This document shows positions 20,373 to 57,472 of a DNA stretch of 64,000 nucleotides, piece after piece. Made by a program: the position numbers and the translations under genes. Under the pieces are notes generated by a model, which searched no databases, was not told where the DNA came from, and worked only from the letters and a program-made list of their open reading frames with translations. Numbering within the stretch: the first letter of the stretch is position 1; each line of letters opens with the position of its first letter. Source of the DNA: an uncultured Selenomonadaceae bacterium (GTDB lineage: Bacteria; Bacillota; Negativicutes; Selenomonadales; Selenomonadaceae); assembly GCA_905234175.1 (NCBI GenBank), contig CAJOGX010000004.1, positions 27,401-91,400 on the forward strand, written 5' to 3'.

Positions 20373-20471
20373 TAACTTTCTTTCTGGCGCAGAAAGAAAG
20401 TTACAAAGAAAGGCAGGGCCGAGTGACGCCATCCAGGCGTCAGTGCGGCCCGCGCCCCGTCCATGGGGCGC
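20373..20471 (+). repeat. interspersed triple-hairpin repeat, copy A
   Basis: TAACTTTCTTTCT-GGCGC-AGAAAGAAAGTTA; linker CAAAGAAAG; GGGCCG(TGACGCC..GGCGTCA)CGGCCC; GCGCCCC-GTCCAT-GGGGCGC; followed by T8. Confidence 0.9.
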
Positions 20472-28254: not shown

Positions 28255-28283
28255 AGAAAGCGCCCGCAGGCGCCTTGATTTTA
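28255..28283 (-). terminator. terminator-like hairpin downstream of tmRNA
   Basis: minus strand AAGGCGCC-TGC-GGGCGCTTTCTT. Confidence 0.5.
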
Positions 28284-28284
28284 G

Positions 28285-28629
28285 TGGAGATGGCGGGAGT
28301 CGAACCCGCGTCCGAAAATGACGTTACCCGACTTTCTCCGAGCGCAGTCAGTGATTGTTTTTCAGCCGCGCCGAGTTCGCTGACAAACTTTGCGCAGCCA
28401 AGCGCCGAAAGAAATTCCCAGACCGTTATGGCGCGTTAGAGTCTGGTATCTCGCGTTGACCCCCGACCCGACTCAGCGAGAATCAGTCGGCGGAGGCTGG
28501 CTTATGCTGCCAGAGCGTATTCTTCATTCGCGTTTATTTTCAAAACACTTGCCCCTTGATAAACCGGTTCAGGGCGCCGGTGCTCGCTTATCAAATCCCA
28601 TCTATCCCCGTCGAAACCGGTGCATCCCC
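28285..28629 (-). ncRNA. ssrA: transfer-messenger RNA; encoded tag ANEEYALAA (plus the tRNA-borne Ala); 3' CCA not encoded
   Basis: 5' GGGGATGCACCGGTTTCGACGGGGATAGATG and 3' CGGACGCGGGTTCGACTCCCGCCATCTCCA; internal GCG AAT GAA GAA TAC GCT CTG GCA GCA TAA. Confidence 0.97.
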
Positions 28630-32316: not shown

Positions 32317-32416
32317 CTACTTTCTTTGTGCCGACAAAGAAAGTAGCAAAGAAAGCTCGCCCGCTTAGGTCGCTTCCGGCGACCACACGCGGGCAGGCGC
32401 CCCATCCTTGGGGCGC
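32317..32416 (+). repeat. interspersed triple-hairpin repeat, copy B
   Basis: CTACTTTCTTTGT-GCCG-ACAAAGAAAGTAG; CAAAGAAAG; GCCCGC(GGTCGC..GCGACC)GCGGGC; GCGCCCC-ATCCTT-GGGGCGC. Confidence 0.9.
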
Positions 32417-40741: not shown

Positions 40742-40992
40742 CCCAACGGCTCTTTGAAAAGTTGGGATATGCGGTTGGCAACTCGTGGGCGTTGTTGTCG
40801 TAAAATCCCGAGCGCAGTTAAGATGAAATGCAGGAGATTTCACGTTCAAGGAAACCTGCATATGTACCCGTACGTTAGCGGGGAATTTAAGCCTGTGGAG
40901 CGTCATACCAACGCAAGTAGTTTCGATCAAAGCGGACGCGGTGAAGCAGGAATGGGACATAAAAGTTTTTTACTTTTTATAAGTTCTCAGTA
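40741..40992 (+). mobile_element. putative IS200/IS605 tnpB 3'-end / omega-RNA-like remnant
   Basis: One frame (ending TAA ~40980) reads ..ETCICTRTLAGNLSLWSVIPTQVVSIKADAVKQEWDIKVFYFL*, resembling TnpB C-termini; nested stems ATGCAGG/CCTGCAT, TGAAAT/ATTTCA, CCCG/CGGG; no left end or catalytic core. Confidence 0.5.
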
Positions 40993-41003: not shown

Positions 41004-42173
41004 ATGGCTGACAAACCGAAAGACCTGTATGAAATTCTCGGCGTGAACAAAAACGCCACTGACGACGAGCTCAAGAAGGCTTATAAAAAGCTCGCGAAAA
41101 AATATCACCCCGACTTGAACCGCGACGATCCTAAGACTGCCGAGGCGAAGATGAAGGAAATTAACGTCGCCTATGACATTTTGAAAGACCCGCAGAAACG
41201 CGCTCAGTACGACCAGTTCGGACACGCGGCGTTCCAGCCTGGCGGCGGAGGCGGTGAAGCTGGCGGCGGTTTCGACTTCAACGACATTTTTGGCGGCGGC
41301 GCTGGCGGCTTCGATATGGGCGACATTTTTGACCAGTTCTTCGGCGGCGGAGCCAGACGCGCTCGCAACCGTCAGCCTGGCCCCGAACGCGGCGCCGATT
41401 TGCGCTACGATTTGACAATCAATTTTGAGGACGCCGCTTTTGGCAGGGAAATGGATATTAAAGTTCCGCGAATGGAAAACTGTACCGAATGCGACGGCAC
41501 CGGCGCGGCTAAGGGCACGACGCCCGAAACCTGCCCCGACTGCCAAGGCTCCGGCATGCGCCAGACGACCACCCGCACGCCTTTCGGTATGATTTCCAAC
41601 GCCCGCCCCTGCGACCGCTGTCACGGCACCGGCAAAATTATCAAGACGCCCTGCGCTCACTGCCACGGCTCCGGCAAAACTCGCGTCGAGCGCCAGATTC
41701 ACATTAACATTCCAAAAGGCGTCGACAACGGCAACCGGCTCCGCATTGCGAACGGCGGGCAGCAGGGCACGCGCGGCGGCGCTGACGGCGACCTCTACGT
41801 TTACATCAATATCAAGCCGCACCCGATTTTCACGCGCGACGGAATTGATGTACACTGCGAAATTCCTATAACCTTCGTGCAGGCGGCGCTCGGCGCTAAC
41901 GTTGACGCTCCGACGCTCGACGGAAAAATTGAACTCAAAATTCCTGAAGGCACGCAGTCCGGCGCCGTTTTAAAAATTCGCGGCAAGGGCATTCCTAAAC
42001 TGCGCGGCGAAGGACGCGGTGACGAACTCGTTAAAGTCAAAGTTCTCACGCCGAAAAACCTCTCAGCGTACCAGCGAAAACTCCTGCAGGATTTTGAAAA
42101 GGGCGGCAACGATAACAACAACCCCGAACAGAAATCCTTCCTCGATAAACTCAAGGGACTGTTCAGCAACTGA
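41004..42173 (+). CDS. dnaJ: molecular chaperone DnaJ
   Basis: J-domain YHPDLN, Gly/Phe region, four CxxCxGxG motifs. Confidence 0.97.
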
Positions 42174-54655: not shown

Positions 54656-54754
54656 GGCATTTCTTTCTTAGAGAAAGAAACGCCTTGCAAAGAAAGACGC
54701 CGCGTGGGGAGGTCGCTTCCGGCGACCTACACGCGGCCTTGGGCGGCCGTCCAT
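54656..54754 (+). repeat. interspersed hairpin repeat, copy C (third hairpin degenerate)
   Basis: GGCATTTCTTTCT-TAG-AGAAAGAAACGCC; CAAAGAAAG; GCCGCGTG(AGGTCGC..GCGACCT)CACGCGGC. Confidence 0.85.
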
Positions 54755-57376: not shown

Positions 57377-57472
57377 GCGGCCCATGGACGGGCCGCGGGC
57401 CGCACTGACGCCTGGATGGCGTCACTCGGCCCAGCTTTCTTTGCCGGCGTTTCTTTCACGAAAGAAATGCCG
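57377..57472 (-). repeat. interspersed triple-hairpin repeat, copy D (inverted relative to A-C)
   Basis: minus strand GGCATTTCTTTC-GT-GAAAGAAACGCC; GCAAAGAAAG; GGGCCG(TGACGCC..GGCGTCA)CGGCCC; GCGGCCC-GTCCAT-GGGCCGC. Confidence 0.9.

Follow-up and report, generated by a model that had tools for sequence, protein, structure and literature searches.

Four copies of a multi-hairpin intergenic element in the window

The window analyzed here, the whole 64,000-nt stretch of DNA from an uncultured Selenomonadaceae bacterium, carries four copies (A to D) of an intergenic element that folds into several hairpins, which raises the question of whether selection acts on the folded form and whether that form belongs to RNA or to single-stranded DNA. 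All four copies were found where the initial annotation had placed them, in the order of hairpin 1 (H1), the linker CAAAGAAAG, a two-part hairpin 2 (H2), and hairpin 3 (H3) (Table 1). The common layout is complete in copies A, B, and D, but copy C has lost hairpin 3, reading GGCGGCC GTCCAT and then CAGATTC.

Table 1 Features of the window, with positions counted from its first letter
Feature	Position	Strand	Parts and remarks
Copy A	20373-20471	+	H1 20373-20403, predicted third strand 20404-20412, H2 20416-20451, H3 20452-20471, then a T-run
Copy A linker, CAAAGAAAG	20404-20412	+	Putative third strand along the part of H1 nearest the loop, read from the mirror-image covariation in the family
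Copy B	32317-32416	+	H1 32317-32346 (CTACTTTCTTTG type), CAAAGAAAG 32347-32355, H2 32359-32394, H3 32397-32416
Copy C	54656-54754	+	H1, linker 54688-54696, H2; H3 without its 3′ arm
Copy D	57377-57472	-	H1 from 57472, CAAAGAAAG 57443-57435, H3 57396-57377
One-piece tmRNA	28282-28629	-	Tag ANEEYALAA
RAGATH-18 RNA match	40892-40952	+	67.1 bits, E 3.4e-11; upstream of gene 41004-42173

A stop codon in the sense orientation lies 15, 5, and 20 nt ahead of the start of copies A, B, and D, respectively, and the neighboring genes are of ordinary kinds. Copy A has a family-3 glycosyl hydrolase gene and an rlmN-like gene as its neighbors, and copy B lies between the convergent genes of an AMP-binding enzyme (the one that stops 5 nt before it) and ruvB. 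Copy D follows an acetyl-CoA hydrolase/transferase gene and precedes a glyoxalase-family (epimerase-like) gene, and copy C is antisense, between two minus-strand genes. Beyond hairpin 3, the copies of this genome have a weakly conserved tail of about 20 nt that is TGCGYGTAAGTT-like.

Copy number and stem covariation

The host genome (G000; 1.99 Mb, about 82% complete) gave 43 BLAST matches with copy A and 26 with copy B, and the covariance-model search that the initial annotation had proposed, with a model built from 11 copies, found at least 47 distinct copies. Covariance-model matches were present in 49 of the 59 genomes searched in the genus, at 0 to >140 per genome, some of these matches being the palindromic hairpin 1 read on the opposite strand. 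In 400 kb of one congener, a sequence unselected for copies, there were 31 strong matches. The copies proved to be mosaics that combine in many ways a few types each of hairpin 1, the H2 outer stem, the H2 inner stem, and hairpin 3, with loops that retain RTCC or RTCAC-like motifs. Upstream of the epimerase gene, at locus L211, one element has a second hairpin-1 type nested within its own hairpin 1.

Among 115 distinct copies, 94.1% of the cells paired, compared with 65.6% after shuffling and about 50% with slid partners, and the covariation score was 0.650, compared with 0.169 after shuffling and no more than 0.083 after sliding; because the alignment was itself made to fit the structure, the unslid values come out too high in comparison with the slid ones, and the margin is somewhat overstated. 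Double-sided compensatory changes were found at 34 of the 34 base pairs of the fold, counted over related copies and hence not as independent events, and the family is in this respect what it had been taken for, i.e., multicopy with compensatory changes. G-T pairs were nearly absent (15 of 2,928 cells, or 0.5%, in H1, H2-inner, and H3; 0 of 798 in H2-inner), about 17 times rarer than G·U in tRNA (26 of 292, or 8.9%, in 14 tRNAs from the fetched loci), and nearly every pair nonetheless showed two to four Watson-Crick types. The stems thus change as complete Watson-Crick modules, a pattern more in keeping with DNA-level palindromes than with an RNA drifting via G·U. Stem compensation alone is no proof of selection on the fold, because palindrome-templated repair can also produce such changes.

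The linker covaries with hairpin 1 as a putative third strand

The linker had been described as invariant and unpaired. It is invariant among the four window copies, but in other copies it covaries with the hairpin-1 arm in a third-strand-like manner. Congeners with other hairpin-1 arms have other linkers too, such as arm TTTTTCTTTT with linker AAAAAGAAAA, TTTCTTTTTTT with AAAGAAAAAAA, and TTTTCTTT with AAAAGAAA. In each case the linker reads parallel to the 5′ arm, i.e., as the mirror image of the 3′ arm, under the rule of A on T-A and G on C-G. An ad hoc scan of all sequence examined found 39 distinct asymmetric heads (hairpin 1 with its linker) that have a mirror linker and none that have an identical one; 22 further heads match neither exactly, and in several of these the arms continue further at the base and the linker spans the part next to the loop. 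The arm types among the mirror heads (53 heads in a rerun) were (4,3), (3,4), (4,2), (5,4), (5,3), and (3,5).

A prediction written before the search was examined in 50 whole genomes of several phyla, which were the sources of the loci from the head-pattern search. The arm TTTTCTTTG followed by the mirror AAAAGAAAG gave 444 matches in 19 of these genomes, whereas the same arm followed by the identical AAAGAAAAG gave 1 match in 1 genome, which is itself a 4,4 linker. Two Burkholderiaceae account for 314 of the mirror matches, and the rest are spread over 17 genomes, including Bacteroidota, Desulfobulbaceae, and Gammaproteobacteria.

Judged from the sequences, the mirror code is that of an R·R:Y triple helix. 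Mirror repeats cannot arise by templated copying, yet they covary, which is most naturally explained by selection on the folded head. The earlier proposal that the folded form is selected is thereby supported, with the mirror third strand as a better argument than the stem changes. Two other roles for the linker were considered and set aside. A switch, in which the linker competes with the 3′ arm, is out, with an identical linker in 0 of the 39 asymmetric heads and in 1 of the 50 genomes, and a multiloop closed by the linker and the T-run would be possible only in the copies that have a T-run. Type-II hairpin 1 has a conserved A-C mismatch (49 of 111 copies). This mismatch (CATTTC/GAAACG) sits at the base of the presumed triplex part, is kept in distant phyla, e.g., at loci L026 and L062 (Prevotella), L095, and L142, and reads as a G-U pair on the other strand.

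Pairing between the hairpin-1 loop and the tail

Outside the genus, the hairpin-1 loop pairs with the bases directly 3′ of the linker (at least 4 contiguous pairs) in 53 of 63 distinct loop/tail combinations, e.g., TCGC with GCGA, GTGTCC with GGACAC, and GCGTC with GACGC. The controls gave 1 to 10 at other offsets and a mean of 11.9 (maximum, 20) with shuffled loops. Within the genus, the pairing was found in 21 of 41 cases with loops of at least 6 nt, and the short-loop types, including window copies A, C, and D, are without it. From the turn at the base of the stem, the third strand would run up to the loop, where the tail pairs, giving one consistent pseudoknot. H-type pseudoknots with a triple helix are found in telomerase RNA and in the SAM-II and preQ1 riboswitches. 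The head resembles them in the topology of stem, loop pairing, and strand along the stem; it differs from them in being part of a dispersed repeat, and its purine-motif reading favors DNA.

Distribution and genomic placement

The head pattern occurs, among the matches listed, in Burkholderiaceae, Xanthomonadaceae, Neisseriaceae, Desulfuromonadales, Bacteroidota, Negativicutes, and others, and also in Ilyobacter (Fusobacteriota) and in Pasteurella multocida replicons, and the head motif is thus part of a wider class, as had been suspected. The query head had no match in the phages searched, leaving phage carriage unsupported, and a T/A-type head query had none in the E. coli collection. Paired heads, oriented toward each other on either side of a long hairpin, were seen in Caballeronia, Paraburkholderia, and Pasteurella. 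At the Caballeronia/Paraburkholderia loci L061, L067, L091, L119, and L122 and similar ones, convergent heads about 450 to 660 bp apart enclose long imperfect palindromes as a composite element, and in a P. multocida replicon (L322, 3001-3430) inverted heads flank a hairpin of about 350 nt, 13 nt past dapF.

In a mixed set of own and congener copies, 77 of about 97 assigned copies lay downstream of a sense gene, at a median of 13 nt past the stop. By gene arrangement, 46 copies of this set were between convergent genes, 31 were in tandem sense and 11 in tandem antisense orientation, 8 were divergent, and 1 was divergent and overlapped a called gene. In the unselected 400-kb congener sample, convergent spaces were enriched about fourfold (P = 0.009), but the tandem copies were 10 sense and 9 antisense, so that the sense bias of the mixed set was not reproduced; the gene calls were home-made, and the caller in the unselected sample was crude (94% coding). 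The 3′ space is favored, which bears out the 3′ intergenic placement of the family, and strict transcript orientation is not. In a search for replication-strand bias in congener G034, the GC skew was too weak for strand assignment.

At the ruvB site, where copy B lies, four to five congeners have the element with different stem sequences and the others have a plain terminator or nothing; the plain terminator seen in several of the congeners without the element is CGCCTTCGGGCG followed by a T-run. Upstream of the epimerase gene, the element is present in two congeners and the site is empty in a third. A T-run directly 3′ of hairpin 3 was found in about 16 of 44 own-genome copies (about a third), most copies being without one.

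Search for a dispersal machinery

The initial annotation had named a REP/RAYT-like enzyme as a candidate and a Y1 transposase (RAYT/TnpA_REP) as the gene to search for, and the search speaks against it. The Y1_Tnp domain (PF01797) was absent from the host genome and from nearly all copy-rich congeners, including G004 (93% complete), G006 (99%), G022 (94%), G044 (95%), G020, G033, G034, and further genomes that carry dozens of copies, and was present as fragments in two copy-rich congeners, G002 and G028. No conserved tetranucleotide tag, GTAG or CGTC, was seen 5′ of hairpin 1 in 44 copies, and the GTAG at the arm end of B-type copies is part of the stem. REPs and REPINs with a RAYT (TnpA-REP) resemble the element as short, palindromic, high-copy intergenic repeats that form inverted pairs in some taxa and have a conserved stem mismatch; in contrast to them, the element lacks a Y1 transposase resident in the genome in most of the copy-rich cases, has no GTAG tag, and has a putative third strand. 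Since neither the RAYT nor the tag was found when looked for, we do not class the element as a REP.

Reverse transcriptase (PF00078) was likewise absent from 10 of 13 copy-rich genomes, including G000, G006, and G034. Among 2,519 clustered ORF fragments beside the heads in other phyla, no gene with the look of a dedicated enzyme recurred, and the largest cluster seems to consist of spurious GC-rich frames. The element had no Rfam match at the gathering score. Around the host-genome copies, we saw no terminal inverted ends and no exact insertion boundary or target duplication; TIR-like ends were found only in congener G025 and in one copy of G038. In G025 (loci L326 to L340), the element lies inside a MITE-like unit of about 206 to 217 bp with TAGGGCGTGTTGA ends, and in G022 (L346, 185-964), an IS4/5-family transposase lies between similar ends. 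IS5-type MITEs are comparable in this G025 unit, but were rejected as a general carrier, the TAGGGCGTGTTGA ends being absent from the host genome (one chance-level hit) and from the other copy-rich congeners. The G025 unit is a local capture, because its ends are missing in the host genome. A MITE-like family with TAGGGCGTGTTGA ends has >400 ends in G038.

Comparison with intrastrand triplex motifs

Bacterial intrastrand triplex motifs have been known since about 2000. The head has the order of class II, with a pyrimidine arm, a purine arm, and a reverse-Hoogsteen purine run on one strand, and follows the class II rule that the third strand runs antiparallel to the purine arm and forms A-A-T and G-G-C triplets (39:0 in the scan; 444:1 in the prediction). 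As far as sequence goes, it fits the definition of a class II intrastrand triplex (PIT/ITxF) motif (Holder et al. 2015, PMC4666352). It has in common with PIT elements such as TM_ECO/BoxC (PMC4666352) a pyrimidine arm, a loop, a purine arm, a short second loop, and a second purine run, and it is like PIT elements in being abundant in bacterial genomes and in having a copy number that differs between close relatives. It falls outside the TM_ECO/BoxC subfamily (CCCTCNCCC N3-6 GGGNGAGGG N3 GGGNGAGGG), having a T/A-rich core.

The element's own features in this comparison are the T/A-rich core, an exact mirror third strand covarying across phyla, the loop pseudoknot, and extra RTCC-loop hairpins. 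Relative to that study (PMC4666352), in which the word pseudoknot does not occur, what is new is a T/A-rich family with three-strand covariation, a loop pseudoknot, and a composite with RTCC hairpins. The head sequences were not found in a bacterial-repeat context in the literature searched. According to the same study (PMC4666352), class II purine-motif intrastrand triplexes do not form in RNA, and there was no stable in vivo triplex for the motif under study there.

A proposed single-stranded DNA repeat and its alternatives

On balance, we think it somewhat probable that the element is a noncoding, nonautonomous intergenic DNA repeat with a triplex head that acts when one strand is single-stranded. 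The head would consist of a pyrimidine arm, a loop, a purine arm, a short turn, and a second purine run laid back as a third strand, which would make the folded head an intrastrand triple helix of the class II, purine-motif kind. Where the head has its more widespread form, the 4 to 6 bases after this run pair with the hairpin loop and would lock a pseudoknot, and in the genus form two further hairpins with RTCC loops follow. The fold may form as single-stranded DNA, e.g., during replication, a trans-acting host or mobile-element protein may recognize the head and loops and spread the copies, and the copies may persist since 3′ spaces tolerate them. The near absence of G-T pairs, together with the statement that class II triplexes do not form in RNA (PMC4666352), favors DNA, and dispersal is indicated by the 0 to >140 matches per congener, the 31 matches in the unselected 400 kb, and the empty versus filled epimerase site. 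Against this reading, purine runs rich in A/T are nothing unusual, and a pyrimidine-motif triplex, a type that RNA can adopt, could form on the complementary strand; which strand acts is something that we only infer. The element kept at the ruvB site in four to five congeners fits a host role as well as spread. The absence of a stable in vivo triplex for the motif of Holder et al. (PMC4666352) also counts against it, as do the failure to find an enzyme or an exact boundary or target duplication and the lack of loop pairing in window copies A, C, and D.

The element might instead work as a 3′-UTR RNA, with transcript hairpins that terminate transcription or protect the 3′ end and with the linker as the A-rich loop-3 strand of an H-type RNA pseudoknot. 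This we consider rather unlikely. The placement of 77 of about 97 copies after a sense gene and the tandem sense bias, both from the mixed set, the T-run straight after hairpin 3 in about a third of the own copies, and the terminator that several element-free congeners bear at the ruvB site would all agree with it, but the tandem copies of the unselected sample are balanced, most copies are without a T-run, G-U pairs are nearly absent, a minor-groove strand is not expected to track an exact A/G stem code, and Rfam has no match. If the functional RNA came from the opposite strand, the major groove of the hairpin would hold a U-rich strand (U-A-U, C+-G-C), much as in telomerase-type pseudoknots; read on the opposite strand, the covariation follows the rule for pyrimidine triplexes, a type of fold that is accessible to RNA, and the A-C mismatch of type-II hairpin 1 becomes a G-U pair there. 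The tandem copies, however, have no antisense bias, and both G-U and A-C pairs are nearly absent from H2-inner and H3 in both senses, and we regard this explanation as improbable.

It seems quite improbable to us that there is no selection on the fold at all, and that the copies are decaying repeats whose stems stay perfect through palindrome-templated repair and gene conversion. Stems swapped as whole perfect modules, almost without G-T intermediates, and modules shuffled among copies are what such a process would leave behind, but it cannot make a mirror third strand track the arms in 19 genomes, nor can it yield loop pairing across phyla. A classical REP mobilized by the genome's own RAYT (TnpA-REP), since lost or missing from the assembly, would account for the high copy number, the palindromes, the intergenic placement, and the conserved stem mismatch, yet PF01797 is absent from G000 and from most copy-rich congeners, including the 99% complete G006, and no conserved GTAG tag stands 5′ of hairpin 1; we rate this as highly improbable. 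We prefer a repeat acting at the level of single-stranded DNA over a 3′-UTR RNA, as the evidence leans to DNA. More tentatively, the heads could represent a multi-phylum repeat superfamily under selection for folding, in single-stranded DNA, into a pseudoknotted intrastrand triple helix, with recognition and dispersal by machinery other than a Y1 transposase or a reverse transcriptase; we hold this to be possible rather than probable.

Third-strand covariation in 19 genomes of several phyla, together with the loop-tail pairing, is evolutionary evidence for a selected triple-stranded fold. The family makes the proposed folded DNA, and the relevance of its third strand in cells, testable, with defined mutants in which the mirror rule is broken while the hairpin is kept and is then restored. 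It also points to a factor that may spread such repeats without a RAYT.
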